Assembly (NCBI GenBank): GCA_937922785.1
Contig: CALAJQ010000015.1
Span: 1 to 64,000, forward strand
Direction of reading: 5' to 3'
Origin: an uncultured Acidimicrobiales bacterium
Lineage (GTDB): Bacteria > Actinomycetota > Acidimicrobiia > Acidimicrobiales > SZUA-35
DNA: 64,000 nucleotides
Shown here: in pieces, positions 49,606 to 56,932 of the stretch
How the letters are laid out: the number at the start of each line of letters is the position of its first letter
Numbering within the stretch: the stretch's first letter is position 1
The notes under the pieces: model-generated
The model's database searches: none
What the model saw: only the letters and a program-made list of their open reading frames with translations
What the model was told of the DNA's origin: nothing
Made by a program: the position numbers and the translations under genes

Positions 49606-50628
49606 TTAGAGGCTGTTTGGAGCCGCTGGTGTCGTGGTTGGGGTGCGCCACGTAGTCGACGTAGTTGTCGGCTGAGTCGACTCAGTTGTGACTTCGCCGC
49701 CTGTTGTGGCCGTTTCTTCAGATGAGGCAATCGTGGTGCTGTCTTCGGAAGGCTCAGTTGTTGGCGCAGTAGTGTCGGGCGTGGAGGTTGGCGGAGCCGT
49801 AGTTGGCGTGGAGTTGTCAGCCGTTGTTGGTGGGCCGCAGTCAGGTGAGTCGGTGTCACACGGGCTAGCTGGGCAGTCAGCGTCGACGTCTGGGTCACAT
49901 ACTGGCGGCTCGGTCGTTGTTGTGGGCTCGCAAGGCTCAGTAGTTGTTGTAGAGCCTTCTACGTCAGGACAATCAGGCTTTGTAGTGGGCGGCGCAGTAG
50001 TTGTGGGCTCGCACGGAACAGTCGTTGACCCAGGCTGGGTGCTATCTACGCCACACGGCTCTGTAGTTGGCGTGGTCGGCTCGGGGGTGGTCGGCTCGGG
50101 CGAAGTAGTGGGCGGGCTAGTCGGAGGCTCAGTCGGTGGAGGTTCAGTCGTGGGCGGAACGGTTGTGGGTTCTTCGGTTGGAGAGTCCGGACCTGGCCAG
50201 GTTGGTGGGCTGGTGTCAGTATCGGGCTCAGTATCAGGAACGGTGGTGCTTGGAGGCGGCTCAGTTGTTGGAGGAGGCACGCGAGGGATTGTGTTGCCGG
50301 GACCGAGCGTTGGTTCGGGGTCGGTAGAAGTCGGGGCCCAGACTGTGGTGGTCGGGGCCTCAGTTGTTGTGGGCAGGTTGTCAGTAGTGGAGACCAGCGA
50401 AGTGGTCGTAGTTGTTGTTGAAGTGGTCGTTGTTGACGAACTCGTAGTTGAAGTCTCAGCAGCAAGGGAGCTGGAAGCTGCAGCGGCCTCGATGAGATCG
50501 CTTCTGACGCCCCAAGCACCGTATGTAATTGGACCTGCAATCAAGCCAGCTGACACGGTCGACAGCGCGACAGCGAGCAAGAGCCGAGGCGACCGAAGTG
50601 CCTCAAGGAAGCGTTCTGAATTGTTCAT
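49606..50628 (-). CDS. Thr/Pro-rich anchored surface protein
   Basis: A protein of about 340 residues that starts at ATG 50628 with a signal-anchor (RSPRLLLAVALSTVSAGLIA) and continues almost entirely in Thr, Pro, Ser and Glu, with stretches such as SSSTTTTSTTTTTT and PPTTEPPPTEPPTSPPTT, and a few scattered Cys (CGVDS, CEPTT, CDPDVDADC, CDTDSPDC). This is a mucin-like, probably O-glycosylated external stalk; no enzymatic domain is seen. A long frame also exists on the opposite strand (Ser/Val/Gly-rich), but the signal sequence supports the minus strand. A degenerate palindromic copy may lie in the signal region near 50501-50540. Confidence 0.72.
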   Translation of the reverse strand: MNNSERFLEALRSPRLLLAVALSTVSAGLIAGPITYGAWGVRSDLIEAAAASSSLAAETSTTSSSTTTTSTTTTTTSLVSTTDNLPTTTEAPTTTVWAPTSTDPEPTLGPGNTIPRVPPPTTEPPPSTTVPDTEPDTDTSPPTWPGPDSPTEEPTTVPPTTEPPPTEPPTSPPTTSPEPTTPEPTTPTTEPCGVDSTQPGSTTVPCEPTTTAPPTTKPDCPDVEGSTTTTEPCEPTTTTEPPVCDPDVDADCPASPCDTDSPDCGPPTTADNSTPTTAPPTSTPDTTAPTTEPSEDSTTIASSEETATTGGEVTTESTQPTTTSTTWRTPTTTPAAPNSL

Positions 50629-50823
50629 GTAGCGGGGCGGCACCTATGTGAACGGAAGACTTACAAGATAAAAAACTAGACCTACAGCGGTGTTTTAGCC
50701 GCCTAATCGGCACTTGTCGTCCCGTTCGGGTGGATTCACCTAGCTCGCGCACATAGGTAAATATTCGCTCATCCGCCAATGGAACGAACGCCCAAGCTAA
50801 ATCCGGTGCACAATTGAGGCTGC

Positions 50824-51414
50824 ATGAGCTCCAAAAACGGCCAAGAATCGGCTTCAGAAGCCAAAAATGCGCTCCGGGCCCGGGCGGTCAAGCGCCGGAA
50901 GACCACAGTCGGCGATTCCGCAGCAGTTTGTAGGTATTTGGAACCATTCCTTGTTTCCAACCTGAACCAGGGGAGTGGCGTTGTGGTGGTCTATGACGCA
51001 CTAAAGGGCGAGATCGATCTCGGCTCGTTATGGGATCCTAAGAAGCGTCAAAGCGAACCCGCAATTTCCTACGCCATTACCCGCACGCCCGAGACCGATA
51101 TGGACCTCACAGTCCACTTGGTGTCGGCCGAGCTAGAGCTTCACCGCTGGGGTTACCGCCAACCAGTAGCAGGCACCCACGAAGTCGATCTAAGCGAGAT
51201 AGCTGCGGTGCTAGTTCCCGCTCTTGCCTTTGACTTGAGCGGCGGTCGAATCGGTTGGGGAGCCGGCTACTACGATCGTTTGCTCGCTCGGATCAGACCC
51301 GACGCGCTAAAGATCGGCATTAGCGACGGCTTCATTGTGGACAAGGTGCCAACCGATGCCCACGATGTTGCCATGACTCACATCGCGACACCCAGTGGTG
51401 TGATTAGCGTTTAG
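50824..51414 (+). CDS. 5-formyltetrahydrofolate cyclo-ligase
   Basis: A 196-residue folate enzyme that turns 5-formyl-THF into 5,10-methenyl-THF using ATP. The family signature near the end is GGRIGWGAGYYDRLLARI (canonical GRGGGYYDR), and VLVPALAFDLSG precedes it. The N-terminal KNALRARAVKRRK is the usual basic start. Start ATG. It converges on the peroxiredoxin gene with an overlap of 11 bases. Confidence 0.9.
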   Translation: MSSKNGQESASEAKNALRARAVKRRKTTVGDSAAVCRYLEPFLVSNLNQGSGVVVVYDALKGEIDLGSLWDPKKRQSEPAISYAITRTPETDMDLTVHLVSAELELHRWGYRQPVAGTHEVDLSEIAAVLVPALAFDLSGGRIGWGAGYYDRLLARIRPDALKIGISDGFIVDKVPTDAHDVAMTHIATPSGVISV

Positions 51415-51865
51415 CGGCGTCCAAGTCGGCGATGACCTCGACTGCATGACCAGCTGGGTCAGTCACTTCGTAGGCCTTTGTGATGACACCTTCGGGATCG
51501 ATCAGGTATGAAATGCGCTGCGGGTAGTCGGCGTAGGGGTCGTCGCCAGAGCGAACAACTTCATACGCTGCGCCAATCTCACGTGACTCGTCTGACAGGA
51601 GATCAAACGGAAAGTCCTGGGATGACTTGAAGGTTGAGTTGTCCGCAGGGCTATCAAAGGATGCACCCAAGATGGTGCAGCCGAGTTCAACAAACATCTG
51701 GGCCTGATCACGCAGGCCGCCTCCTTGAAGCGTTCAACCTGGCGTGCTTGCTTTGGGATACCACCAAAACAGGACCCAACCGCCTTGAAGGTCTGACAGC
51801 GTTACATCGACACCGTCTGAATTCGGCGCGGTGAAATCTGGAGCGGTAGTACCAACTTCGAGCAT
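51404..51865 (-). CDS. Selenocysteine-containing peroxiredoxin (in-frame TGA at the peroxidatic position)
   Basis: Reading from ATG 51865 on the minus strand gives a continuous frame of 153 residues with one in-frame TGA (51734-51736, codon 44). The part before it (MLEVGTTAPDFTAPNSDG ... WYPKASTPG) and after it (TLQGGGLRD ... LGCTILGASFDSPADN) is an AhpC/TSA-type, BCP-like peroxiredoxin. The TGA is exactly where the peroxidatic Cys of TPGCT is expected. A perfect stem-loop, GGCCTG-CGTGAT-CAGGCC, begins 16 bases after the TGA. This is best read as a selenoprotein that reduces peroxides; a Gly replaces the second Cys of the BCP CxxxxC pair. A Cys remains at LGC. A simple nonsense mutation is the alternative. 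Confidence 0.82.
51701..51718 (-). promoter_or_regulatory. Candidate bacterial SECIS stem-loop
   Basis: GGCCTG-CGTGAT-CAGGCC on the minus strand: a perfect 6-bp stem with a 6-base loop, whose apical loop lies 22-27 bases after the TGA of the peroxiredoxin gene. Bacterial SECIS hairpins lie just downstream of the UGA inside the coding sequence, so both position and shape fit. Confidence 0.7.
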
Positions 51866-51906: not shown

Positions 51907-52563
51907 ATGAAGTTTTATGAAGGCAAGAGTCGGCTGGTTTCAACCTCGGTTGTGGCGGCCAGCATGGCGCTAGCCGCCGCCGGGTGCAGCAGCGGAAGTG
52001 TTGAAGTGGCAACTACCGAAGTGGCGATAACCGAGGGTCTGGGCACCACAGAACAACCTGTCTACCGACCGGTTGAGGTCAGCGGCGACCCACTTGTGCA
52101 GCCCGCTTTGGATGGCGGTGCCGATCCTGCAGCTGGCGCTGTGGCCCCCGACCTTACCGGCGTCGGGCTTAATGGGCTGCCGGTGGAGATTAAGAACGAC
52201 GGCAGGCCCAAAGCCGTAGTGTTTGTGGCCCACTGGTGTCCCCATTGTCAGGCCGAAGTTCCGATTATCTCCGAACTTCTGGCCCAGGGCGAAAAGCCAG
52301 AAGGTATGGATCTCTACGTGGTTTCGACCGCCGTGTTCAGCGACAGGGAGAACTTCCCACCATCGGACTGGCTCAACTCCGCAGGGCTAGACGTGCCTCT
52401 TATGGCCGACTCAGCTGAGTTCGATGCCCTTATCGCTTTTGGCGGCGGAGGCTTCCCGTTTACGGTCTACCTCGACGGTGAAAACAGGGTGCTTAAGCGA
52501 ACTCAAGGAACTGCTAGCGCCGAGACGATCAAAGCCCTCTGGTTGGAGACTGCGGCCTCTTGA
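51907..52563 (+). CDS. Thioredoxin-like (TlpA-type) lipoprotein
   Basis: A 218-residue external thioredoxin-fold protein. ATG 51907 gives a lipoprotein signal (STSVVAASMALAAAGC with Cys lipidated). The redox site is VVFVAHWCPHCQAEVPI, a standard CPHC, and the cis-Pro is in GGFPFTVYLDG. Such proteins reduce partner disulfides outside the membrane. It is divergent from the selenocysteine-type peroxiredoxin with 41 bases between starts, so the pair may share regulation, although they act on different sides of the membrane. Confidence 0.88.
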   Translation: MKFYEGKSRLVSTSVVAASMALAAAGCSSGSVEVATTEVAITEGLGTTEQPVYRPVEVSGDPLVQPALDGGADPAAGAVAPDLTGVGLNGLPVEIKNDGRPKAVVFVAHWCPHCQAEVPIISELLAQGEKPEGMDLYVVSTAVFSDRENFPPSDWLNSAGLDVPLMADSAEFDALIAFGGGGFPFTVYLDGENRVLKRTQGTASAETIKALWLETAAS

Positions 52564-53809: not shown

Positions 53810-54709
53810 ATGGTCGATATTGCTGTAGTCGGCTCAATCAATATGGACATTTCTGTATTGGTGGGGTCCATACCGATTCCCGGCGAAACGGTGTTGGGTG
53901 GAGACGCACGATGGAGCGGCGGCGGTAAAGGCGCCAATCAGGCGGTTGCTGCTTCGCGGCTAGGTCGCAGGGTCGCGATGGTCGGATGTGTCGGTTCAGA
54001 TGCCGCTGGTGAAGATCTCGTGCAGCGGCTGACTAATGACCGAATCGACGTGTCACAAGTTCGGGTTCTGGATGGGGTCGCCAGTGGCTTGGCCCTCATT
54101 GCTGTGGATCAAACGACGGGGGAAAACTCGATTGTTGTAAGTCCCGGGGCGAATGCAAAGGTCGCCCCAGAGGGGGTCGGCCAAGCCGAGGCGGTGACGA
54201 GCGCCAAAGTGGTGCTCTTGCAGCTCGAGATTCCTATCGAGACTGTGGCGGCAGCGGCGGCTGCTGCTACCGGCACTGTGATTTTGAACCCGGCGCCAGC
54301 TCACCCGGCCGCAAGCCAGCTTCTGGCCGAAGTGGACGTCGTGATCCCGAACGAGCACGAGCTTGCGACCTTGGCAGGAACTGCTCCCCTTCATGAGGAG
54401 TCCGCTCTTTTGGAAGCAGCATTGGGATTAGCTGGCGACGCAGATGTTGTTGTGACAATGGGATCCAAGGGTGCGCTAGTTGTTCCGCGTCGAACCACGG
54501 GTGAACCTGTATTTGTTGCTGCTCATAGCGTTGAAGCGATTGACACCACCGCCGCCGGTGACTCCTTCTGCGGTGCCGTCGCCGACGCCCTTGCCCGCCA
54601 GCAAACACTCACTGCCGCTGTTGAGTGGGCGGTCAAAGTTGCGGCCCTGACAGTGCAAAGCCCGGGGGCTCAAGACTCGCTGCCGTACCTCACAGACCTC
54701 ACAGACTGA
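53810..54709 (+). CDS. rbsK: Ribokinase
   Basis: A 299-residue PfkB-family sugar kinase. The N-terminal GSINMDISVLVGSIP, the GGGKGANQAVAASRLG motif and the catalytic DTTAAGDSFCGAVADAL near residue 245 identify ribokinase. It phosphorylates ribose, which the nucleoside hydrolase just upstream would release. Start ATG. It converges on galE. Confidence 0.92.
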   Translation: MVDIAVVGSINMDISVLVGSIPIPGETVLGGDARWSGGGKGANQAVAASRLGRRVAMVGCVGSDAAGEDLVQRLTNDRIDVSQVRVLDGVASGLALIAVDQTTGENSIVVSPGANAKVAPEGVGQAEAVTSAKVVLLQLEIPIETVAAAAAAATGTVILNPAPAHPAASQLLAEVDVVIPNEHELATLAGTAPLHEESALLEAALGLAGDADVVVTMGSKGALVVPRRTTGEPVFVAAHSVEAIDTTAAGDSFCGAVADALARQQTLTAAVEWAVKVAALTVQSPGAQDSLPYLTDLTD

Positions 54710-54724
54710 GGCTGGCTGCCTACC

Positions 54725-55735
54725 TCAGTCGTAGCCGTTTGGGTGTCTCGATTGCCAGCGCCACGAGTCGGTCAACATCGTCTCCAGATTACGGTCCGCT
54801 CTCCAGTCCAGCTCCGCATGGGCCCTGGAAGGGTCGGCCAGCGAGGTGGCAATGTCTCCCGCTCGCCGATCTGCTATCTCATAGTTGATTTTGACTCCGC
54901 TAACAGCAGCCGTTGTCGCAATCACATCGAGAACAGAAGCGCCGTTTCCAGTTCCTAGGTTAATGGCTCTGCAGCCTGCGATCAGGTTGTCTAAAGCAGC
55001 GAGGTGGCCAGCGGCAAGGTCGACGACGTGGATGTAATCGCGAACACCGGTGCCATCGGCGGTGTCGTAGTTGTTGCCAAACACATTTACTTTCTCGCGG
55101 CGCCCCACAGCAACTTGCATTACAAACGGCACGAGGTTGTTTGGAATCCCTAGCGGGTCCTCGCCCATGTCGCCACTTTCGTGGGCACCAACCGGATTGA
55201 AGTAGCGCAACAGCGTGATCTGCCACCGGGAATCGCTTTTAGCTACTTCCCGGCAGATGTCTTCGATCATCAACTTGGTTGCGCCGTATGGATTGGTGGT
55301 GCGTAGTGGAGCGTCCTCGGGGATTGGCAGAGTTTCAGGATCGCCATAGACGGTCGCTGAAGACGAGAACACCAGATCCCATACGCCGGCAGCAGCCATG
55401 GCAGCCATCAGATTTAATGTCGACATTAGGTTGGTGCGGTAATAGCGGACCGGCTCTTCTACCGATTCGCCGACCGCTTTCAAGCCAGCGAAGTGGATCA
55501 CCGAAGTGATCGGAAACTTTGTAAATACCTCATCAAGAGAGCCAGCCTCGGTGAGATCAGCTTCGACAAACACAACTGATTTTCCGGAGAGCCGCTCAAC
55601 CGTTTCGAGACTTTTCTTGCTGGAGTTAGACAGATTGTCCACAACAACCACGTCGTCGCCTCGCTCTAGGAGTGCGAGAACAGTGTGGCTACCGATATAG
55701 CCGGCGCCTCCAGTGACAAGAATTGTCTGAGTCAT
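54725..55735 (-). CDS. galE: UDP-glucose 4-epimerase
   Basis: A 336-residue short-chain dehydrogenase fold epimerase that interconverts UDP-glucose and UDP-galactose. The NAD motif GGAGYIGSHT is at residue 8, followed by VVVDNLSNSS, the catalytic Ser region FSSSATVYGDP and the Tyr-Lys pair YGATKLMIED. The product feeds galactose into envelope polysaccharides. Start ATG. Confidence 0.93.
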   Translation of the reverse strand: MTQTILVTGGAGYIGSHTVLALLERGDDVVVVDNLSNSSKKSLETVERLSGKSVVFVEADLTEAGSLDEVFTKFPITSVIHFAGLKAVGESVEEPVRYYRTNLMSTLNLMAAMAAAGVWDLVFSSSATVYGDPETLPIPEDAPLRTTNPYGATKLMIEDICREVAKSDSRWQITLLRYFNPVGAHESGDMGEDPLGIPNNLVPFVMQVAVGRREKVNVFGNNYDTADGTGVRDYIHVVDLAAGHLAALDNLIAGCRAINLGTGNGASVLDVIATTAAVSGVKINYEIADRRAGDIATSLADPSRAHAELDWRADRNLETMLTDSWRWQSRHPNGYD

Positions 55736-55796: not shown

Positions 55797-56351
55797 GTGA
55801 CTGCCCCAACCCAAACTAGGCCAGCCGGATGGTTTTATGCTGACGCCGAACCAGAGCCCGACGCCACTGGTTGGGACGGCCGCCTTTGGCCCGAGATATT
55901 GGGTTATGTGGGTCAGCCAGCCGAGCGACGGGTTCCGGCCTTGGTTGAGGACTTGCCTCCCATGTTCGAGGTGGTTGCCCTTCCTGAAAGCACAACCGAG
56001 ACTCCGGCAATCTCAGCGACGCAAACTAGCGAGCAGCCCGAGGAACCGGTTCCGGCTGTGGAGATGGCTGTGGCTGTCGTCGAGCCCGAAGAGTTGGTTC
56101 TGGCTGAGGTGGAGCCCGTATCCGGGCCTGAACACAGCCAGAACGAAGTCGTTGAGGTCGAAGATCTGGTTTTGGCTGTTGTGGAGCCCGTATCCGGGCC
56201 TGAACACAGCCAGAACGAAGTCGTGGAGCCTCGATCTGAAGCTCGGCTGGCAGCCGAGACCCACGCTCAATCTGCAACAATGGGCCACGTATTTGCGGTT
56301 CTCACTCTGGTGCTAGTTCTTGTTGCCGTTACTTTGGGAGTTGTTCTATGA
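55797..56351 (+). CDS. DUF2510-like membrane protein containing in-frame palindromic repeats
   Basis: A protein of about 184 residues (start GTG 55797; TTG 55779 also possible). The N-terminal DUF2510-like motif AGWFYADAEPEPDATGWDG is followed by a disordered acidic region and a C-terminal helix (VFAVLTLVLVLVAVTLGVVL). In the middle, palindromic repeats P6 and P7 are translated, giving two tandem 24-residue units each containing LVLA-x-VEPVSGPEHSQNEV. The gene overlaps the next one by ATGA. Function unknown; the repeats are described separately. Confidence 0.8.
   Translation: MTAPTQTRPAGWFYADAEPEPDATGWDGRLWPEILGYVGQPAERRVPALVEDLPPMFEVVALPESTTETPAISATQTSEQPEEPVPAVEMAVAVVEPEELVLAEVEPVSGPEHSQNEVVEVEDLVLAVVEPVSGPEHSQNEVVEPRSEARLAAETHAQSATMGHVFAVLTLVLVLVAVTLGVVL
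56096..56144 (+). repeat. Palindromic repeat P6, inside a coding region
   Basis: Starts GGTTCTGGCTGAGG and ends AACACAGCCAGAAC, with the core CCCGTATCCGGG. It is read in frame as LVLAEVEPVSGPEHSQN. Its arms agree less well than those of P1, as expected if coding constraint or decay acts on it. Confidence 0.88.
56168..56216 (+). repeat. Palindromic repeat P7, inside a coding region
   Basis: Starts GGTTTTGGCTGTTG and ends AACACAGCCAGAAC, with the same core as P6, exactly 72 bases (24 codons) downstream, and the same frame. It is read as LVLAVVEPVSGPEHSQN. P6 and P7 therefore look like a tandem duplication of repeat plus spacer. Confidence 0.88.
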
Positions 56352-56932
56352 GTCAGACATCAAGCGTCAGTGCGGGCTGGTACCACGCGGAAGGTGATCC
56401 CCTCGGAACTCATCGCTATTGGGATGGTGCGCACTGGCAAGGTGGCCCCCGCTTGGCCCAAAGTGTGGCCCGCAAGCAAGCCGAGTCGCTCGACTTTGGA
56501 GTCCCCGCCGACGCCGGGGCCAGGGTTATCGCCCGACTTGTCGATCTGATCGTTTGGCTGGTCATCAGTGTGTCAGTCCACGCTGCTTTGGGTGAACCCC
56601 TTGTTCGGGGCGGATCTGGCGCCAAGTGGTGGATTGCTGGGGTGATCTCGCTGGTAATCATCGGGACCTACGAAGTTGCATTGCCTCTAGTGCGCGGCGG
56701 AACGCTAGGCAAGCTGGCGATGGGGCTGGGAATAGTCTCGGCCGACGGTTCTCGGTTGGCCCAAGAGACAGCACTAATTCGAGTTGCTCCCGCAATGTTG
56801 GCAGCCATCCCAATCTTTGGTTTCTACCTAGCGGTAATCGTGGCTTTGATATCGATCCCTCTAATGTTTACAGACAAGCGATCTCAAGCTCTTTGGGACA
56901 AGCTGGCCCGAACTCTGGTGGTGAGAACCTGA
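56348..56932 (+). CDS. DUF2510 and RDD-domain membrane protein
   Basis: A 194-residue protein with an N-terminal DUF2510 motif (AGWYHAEGDPLGTHRYWDGA) and an RDD-type membrane domain with Arg/Asp near the first helix (GARVIARLVDLIVWLVISVS), then three further helices. RDD proteins are thought to act in ion transport or as membrane anchors. It overlaps the upstream DUF2510-like gene by ATGA and the next small gene by one base, so three membrane genes form one operon upstream of carD. Confidence 0.88.
   Translation: MSQTSSVSAGWYHAEGDPLGTHRYWDGAHWQGGPRLAQSVARKQAESLDFGVPADAGARVIARLVDLIVWLVISVSVHAALGEPLVRGGSGAKWWIAGVISLVIIGTYEVALPLVRGGTLGKLAMGLGIVSADGSRLAQETALIRVAPAMLAAIPIFGFYLAVIVALISIPLMFTDKRSQALWDKLARTLVVRT

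Follow-up and report, generated by a model that had tools for sequence, protein, structure and literature searches.

A predicted selenocysteine peroxiredoxin behind an in-frame TGA in an uncultured Acidimicrobiales bacterium

The window, i.e., the whole stretch of 64,000 nucleotides analysed here (contig CALAJQ010000015.1 of an uncultured Acidimicrobiales bacterium), carries on its minus strand a frame of 153 residue codons that is closed by a TAA and interrupted just once, by an in-frame TGA as codon 44, within the motif TPG-U-T (U denoting the TGA). This frame, the hairpin that follows the TGA, and the two flanking genes make up the locus:

51404..51865, minus strand: predicted selenocysteine (Sec) peroxiredoxin coding sequence (PrxQ/AhpE-like, 153 residues), ATG at 51865, TAA at 51406-51404
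51734..51736, minus strand: in-frame TGA, codon 44, predicted Sec at the peroxidatic position
51701..51718, minus strand: SECIS hairpin with the 6-bp stem GGCCUG/CAGGCC
51707..51712, minus strand: SECIS apical loop CGUGAU; the loop start CGUGA recurs in 84 of 84 distinct loci
50824..51414, plus strand: convergent 5-formyltetrahydrofolate cyclo-ligase gene, overlapping the last 11 bases of the peroxiredoxin gene and outside the Sec system
51907..52563, plus strand: divergent lipoprotein-like gene with a Redoxin/TlpA-like domain and a CPHC motif (chosen start; the listed ORF begins at TTG 51889)

Both neighbours are found at a minority of 99 related loci (duplicates included, flanks of up to 3 kb, some shorter), namely the TlpA-like gene at 18 and the cyclo-ligase gene at 26, and hence no conserved operon is seen; an operon or functional linkage to the flanking genes was considered and rejected on these counts. 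At 49606-50643 on the minus strand lies an ORF of 345 aa, rich in Thr, Pro, and Ser after an N-terminal hydrophobic stretch, which perhaps encodes a cell-surface protein and is faced by a long ORF on the opposite strand. Scanning the window for frames of at least 120 aa with exactly one TGA and little overlap returned ten others, none of which looked by eye like a gene in two halves.

An earlier note on this DNA had recognised peroxiredoxin on both sides of the TGA and had placed the latter exactly at the peroxidatic Cys, and both statements are borne out. The Pfam domain PF00578 (AhpC-TSA) matches residues 4-130 with 110.4 bits and thus spans the TGA; the nearest solved sequences are BCP/PrxQ proteins, among them 5enu (E 6.4e-24), a BCP whose TPGCT motif has its Cys aligned with codon 44. 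Homologs with either Cys or Sec align at this codon, as the note had proposed to verify. Across the 20 rows of alignment A1, in which the other 19 proteins share 46-66% identity with the window protein, P37, T41, position 44, and R117 are invariant, and an Arg is catalytic in peroxiredoxins. The window protein has R117 along with the motif PxxxTxxU described for Sec peroxiredoxins (PMC13188914).

Under translation table 11, the frame yields a mere 97-aa ORF at 51404-51697, just as the note had foreseen. Seven NCBIfam models were listed for the window peroxiredoxin and none reaches its cut-off: the PrxQ model PRK09437 scores 100 bits against a curated cut-off of 140, and NF040737, the PrxU model that we take to stand for the Sec peroxiredoxin of Eubacterium acidaminophilum, scores 59.6 bits against 270. 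For this reason, the whole branch to which the gene belongs may be at risk of being annotated as fragments. The same short ORF invites the reading that two separate proteins are made, with termination at the TGA, a restart at 51697, and a hairpin that serves the restart and not Sec insertion. An ATG (M57) indeed stands 13 codons past the TGA, and partial termination is normal at a UGA for Sec; a split, however, would cut the peroxiredoxin fold at its active site, and Met at position 57 is shared by none of the other 19 rows of A1 (it is present in locus L017, outside A1), all of which renders this reading very unlikely.

Conservation of the TGA was followed through 61 genomes (the window's own and 60 relatives) by a protein search with Cys in place of Sec, a query that does not bias the choice of loci toward TGA. 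All 61 genomes gave matches, and 44 loci were read at the active-site codon. TGA occupies it in 34 of the 36 closest loci (E 1.4e-38 or better), with one Ser and one Cys codon in the other two; these 34 loci stem from 31 genomes, since G002, G035, and G036 hold two copies each. The remaining eight comprise seven ordinary Cys PrxQ genes and one second Sec gene of the window's own genome (L063, see below). A possible use of UAG for Sec, raised by TAG-containing matches (E ~1e-25 to 1e-28), was discarded, as the two of these matches that were read (L060 and L062) are ordinary Cys PrxQ genes whose TAG falls past the last residues.

A wider contig collection gave no match in a scan with the single protein, and a profile scan with A1 found 281 relatives; the best 80 of these 281 were fetched, so that the enlarged set leans to close relatives and overlaps the 36 loci above, and 79 of the 80 have TGA and one has TGC at the active-site codon. 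Most are assigned to Acidimicrobiia, Acidimicrobiales, Acidimicrobiaceae, Ilumatobacteraceae, or Microthrix, or more loosely to Actinomycetes, Actinobacteria, or Actinomycetota, a few being named 'bacterium' only and one Actinomyces sp. Pooling the 34 TGA loci with the best 80 and removing 30 duplicates left 84 distinct loci, 83 with TGA and one with TGC (the Ser and Cys loci of the first search, L055 and L058, are not included). In twelve loci (L133-L136, L138, L139, L142, L144, L147-L149, and L153), TRG-U or TKG-U replaces the usual TPG-U. A sample of 148 genomes from the class yields ten top matches, in as many genomes and with E values of 6.1e-57 or below, that hold one TGA each, its codon position having been read for the window's own match. 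The next match, at E 1.6e-38, has no stop, and the branch of Sec peroxiredoxins thus appears patchy.

These comparisons bear directly on whether the gene is simply broken, i.e., whether a Cys codon (TGC or TGT) has mutated to TGA or been misread as such. TGA is one base from TGC, one relative does have TGC, and a relative in genome G006 has a degraded active site (EPGS). Against this stand the identical TGA, which recurs across separate genome assemblies at 34 of 36 and at 79 of 80 loci, and the lack of further disruption in all 84 distinct loci, each of which stays open for another 106-119 codons past the active site; the earlier note had named relatives with the same TGA and additional disrupting mutations as grounds for abandoning its reading, and none occurs among them. 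Divergence is moreover of the coding type on both sides of the TGA, with 52% of the differences between the 34 loci falling on third codon positions upstream and 45% downstream, and the hairpin covaries (see below). A pseudogene or sequencing error is accordingly extremely improbable, and the TGA-interrupted frame is most likely the gene of a working antioxidant enzyme in which the stop codon is read as selenocysteine.

The note had further taken the TGA to imply that the organism makes selenocysteine and had suggested a search for selA, selB, selC, and selD, all four of which were found in the window's own genome (G000, 95.7% complete). In bacteria, SelD makes selenophosphate, SelA converts Ser-tRNA-Sec to Sec-tRNA-Sec, and SelB carries the latter to the ribosome. 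The tRNA-Sec gene (selC) lies on contig C45 (66.7 bits) and has the anticodon tca (ARAGORN); selA (384.6 bits, 433 aa) and selB (275.2 bits, 572 aa, matching model positions 2-339 of 581) adjoin on C21 with a 4-base overlap; and selD (368.1 bits) lies on C16 and has a TGA of its own in GAG-U-GCK.

Of the 61 genomes, 47 have a selA match, and 31 of these hold the TGA form; it was found in none of the other 14 (Fisher p 6e-6, kinship ignored). All 31 genomes with the TGA form have selA matches (those of G025 and G035 partial and under the cut-off) and selB over the cut-off, 27 have selD over the cut-off (the exceptions being G013, G022, G024, and G035), and 26 have selC over 60 bits (not G012, G020, G023, G025, and G034); draft assemblies may account for the weak or absent selC in five and selD in four of them. 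The search with RF01852 gave some signal in all 14 control genomes, over the cut-off in five, and near-cut-off matches were excluded from the count owing to this noise. In G014, which holds the Cys form, no selA match was found, and selB, selC, and selD are all under the cut-off.

Going by the open frame alone, the residue could in principle be another amino acid, inserted by general UGA reassignment or by near-cognate readthrough. Yet TGA terminates ordinary ORFs of the window (e.g., 53810-54709, 54725-55735, and 56348-56932), the TGA in question sits at the catalytic chalcogen position, the genome has a tRNA-Sec with the anticodon UCA as well as the sel genes, and none of the 14 genomes lacking a selA match holds the TGA form, so that we consider such decoding scarcely credible. 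Selenocysteine is hence the preferred residue, and the gene at 51865..51404 almost certainly encodes the predicted selenocysteine peroxiredoxin, with UGA at codon 44 read as Sec. More generally, these largely uncultured actinobacteria apparently produce selenocysteine and employ it in defence against peroxides.

Past the TGA, the perfect hairpin that the note had pointed out is present as described, with a 6-bp stem (GGCCTG/CAGGCC) and a 6-nt loop (CGTGAT) at +22 to +27, the loop thus beginning after 21 nt. Published limits for bacterial SECIS elements are a loop of 3-9 nt, a stem of 4-16 bp, a G in the first two loop positions, a distance of 16-37 nt from the UGA, and a minimum free energy of at most -7.5 kcal/mol (PMC13188914). 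The window hairpin lies within all of these, with a G among its first two loop positions and -15.0 kcal/mol for 51 nt, and together with its conserved covariation this sustains the suggestion of a bacterial SECIS. No Rfam family matches within the 64-kb window at gathering scores.

While the window stem has 6 bp, most relatives have 7 bp. Since the loci share descent and are not independent, the following stem statistics are not clean probabilities: 78 of the 84 distinct loci have a stem of at least 6 bp beside the fixed loop start (the other six, as scored, just 3 to 5 bp), as compared to a mean of 9.5 and a maximum of 20 loci in 1000 runs of synonymous resampling (same protein, pooled codon usage), and the total stem length over the 84 loci is 566 observed versus 210.9 (standard deviation 18.7) resampled; among 34 loci, 0 of 5000 column-wise synonymous shuffles attained the stem total of the real sequences when the register was free, and 2 of 5000 attained their pairing when a single register was fixed. 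In a crude fixed-register scan, an offset of -57 pairs nearly as often (0.857 vs 0.878). The Arg codon at +8 is CGT at all 84 loci, compared to 58 of 737 Arg codons elsewhere in these genes.

The 79 loci with stems of at least 5 bp fall into classes with loops of 5 nt (20 loci), 6 nt (29), and 7 nt (30), and each class shows two-sided pair changes, for example, C-G to T-A at the third pair, as well as G-C to A-T or C-G to G-C at the fourth. Pairing is also kept by synonymous codons, Leu TTG going with Gln CAA in four and Leu CTG with Gln CAG in 22 of 34 loci; in the other eight, one side of this Leu/Gln pair has a different residue. The hairpin is absent from both L055 (Ser) and L058 (Cys), and its CGUGA form was not seen in selD or the second peroxiredoxin, the other two Sec genes examined in the window's own genome, so that CGUGA is no general mark of the Sec genes there. 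The three loop lengths around a fixed CGUGA offer natural variants for testing signal recognition by SelB.

In an AlphaFold model of the protein (pLDDT 97.0), residue 44 is located in the first turn of the helix 42-53. Its best solved fold relatives include BcpB of Mycobacterium tuberculosis (Z 26.3) along with BCP/PrxQ proteins and AhpE, a 1-Cys enzyme (Z 24.5), and solved peroxiredoxins among the 50 matches listed score Z 22 to 26. For synthesis, SelB with Sec-tRNA-Sec (anticodon UCA) would be held at the ribosome by the hairpin, whose loop starts 21 nt past the UGA, and the UGA would then be decoded as Sec44 in place of a stop. Sec44, at the start of its helix beside P37, T41, and R117, would attack H2O2 or organic peroxides, as expected from the family, and its cycle may be of the 1-Sec kind, drawing on an outside thiol reductant (low-molecular or thioredoxin-like) as in the 1-Cys AhpE.

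The number and position of Cys residues speak to this last point. PrxQ proteins carry their resolving Cys either five residues past the peroxidatic one (+5) or at +36, in helix alpha-3; the window protein has no Cys at either place, and thus lacks the mark of a 2-Cys PrxQ, and its sole other Cys is C63 (+19). In the 84 distinct loci, Cys occurs at +5 in one, at +36 in three, and at +19 in 36, and 41 have no other Cys at all in the span examined. Given the empty resolving places and these 41 loci, the window enzyme is, as judged from sequence, most likely a 1-Sec peroxiredoxin that would be reduced by an outside thiol. Its own genome holds a thioredoxin reductase (393.4 bits, over the cut-off) and an MshC-like match (434.6 bits, under the curated cut-off of 485.1), hence either reductant route is possible and the choice between them is a guess.

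Relatives with altered active sites give some insight into how the family evolves. The TGC (Cys) form L102 (JASHYA010000312.1) retains the CGTGA hairpin at 7 bp, clusters in the tree with five Sec loci (99/95) inside a larger Sec group, and belongs to a genome with selA at 377.5 bits (the one sel gene searched for there); it probably represents a recent change from Sec to Cys and, having kept the hairpin, is a test case for how Sec is lost. For peroxiredoxins, Table 1 of PMC1794560 gives five changes from Cys to Sec and none from Sec to Cys, and L102 looks like the kind missing from that table. L055 (Ser) and L058 (Cys at the active-site codon; the G014 locus) sit on long branches and were not placed by the tree. 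L055 (G006:C39) has a degraded active site that reads EPGS-R, contains neither Sec nor Cys, and is followed by no hairpin, possibly giving a non-peroxidase derivative; the G006 genome has selA, selB, and selD with TGA and no selC over the cut-off. The second peroxiredoxin of the window's own genome with an active-site TGA (TSG-U-T; L063:989-1420, i.e., G000:C18:121738-122169) is ~30% identical to the first, and the weaker single-TGA matches seen in many relatives may be its orthologs.

A broader reading, tentative and in our view slightly less probable than its contrary, would be that an unnamed lineage of 1-Sec peroxiredoxins, spread widely but in patches, exists in the Acidimicrobiia, with a SECIS subclass of its own and at least one Sec-to-Cys change in which selA and the hairpin were kept. 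The subclass would be defined by the invariant loop start CGUGA and a stem sliding by one base (loops of 5, 6, and 7 nt), and the sliding would follow amino-acid changes past the active site in a co-evolution of RNA and protein.

A literature search over titles and the starts of abstracts, with most subscription journals outside its reach, found no study of selenoproteins in Acidimicrobiia. SelA and SelB are reported to occur together in most bins of sponge symbionts (PMC5649159). Compared to known systems, the window protein has the fold and length of PrxQ/BCP (PRK09437) and of the 1-Cys AhpE of M. tuberculosis in common, and BCP aligns in P-x-x-x-T-x-x-(C/U); it differs from them in its Sec in place of Cys and in the missing Cys at +5 and +36. 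With PrxU (NF040737) it shares the peroxiredoxin domain and a weak profile match of 59.6 bits, which is far below the cut-off of 270 bits of that model, itself longer at 233 positions. A Sec peroxiredoxin of E. acidaminophilum from 2001 is cited in PMC13188914. Sec peroxiredoxins are indeed known from bacteria and marine metagenomes, as the earlier note stated: the Sargasso Sea set is reported to hold 43 TxxU genes of COG1225, the second most abundant known selenoprotein family there (PMC1088965), the GOS set 253 sequences (PMC2398784), and a later survey 91 in 78 organisms (PMC5029168), so that the kind as such is already known. Going by the published description of the TxxU family (COG1225/PF00578, PMC1088965), the AhpC/TSA domain, T-x-x-U, the in-frame UGA, and widespread Cys homologs are common to that family and the window gene. 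The window gene belongs to an unnamed branch of these long-known TxxU Sec peroxiredoxins, and one that is easily missed by annotation.
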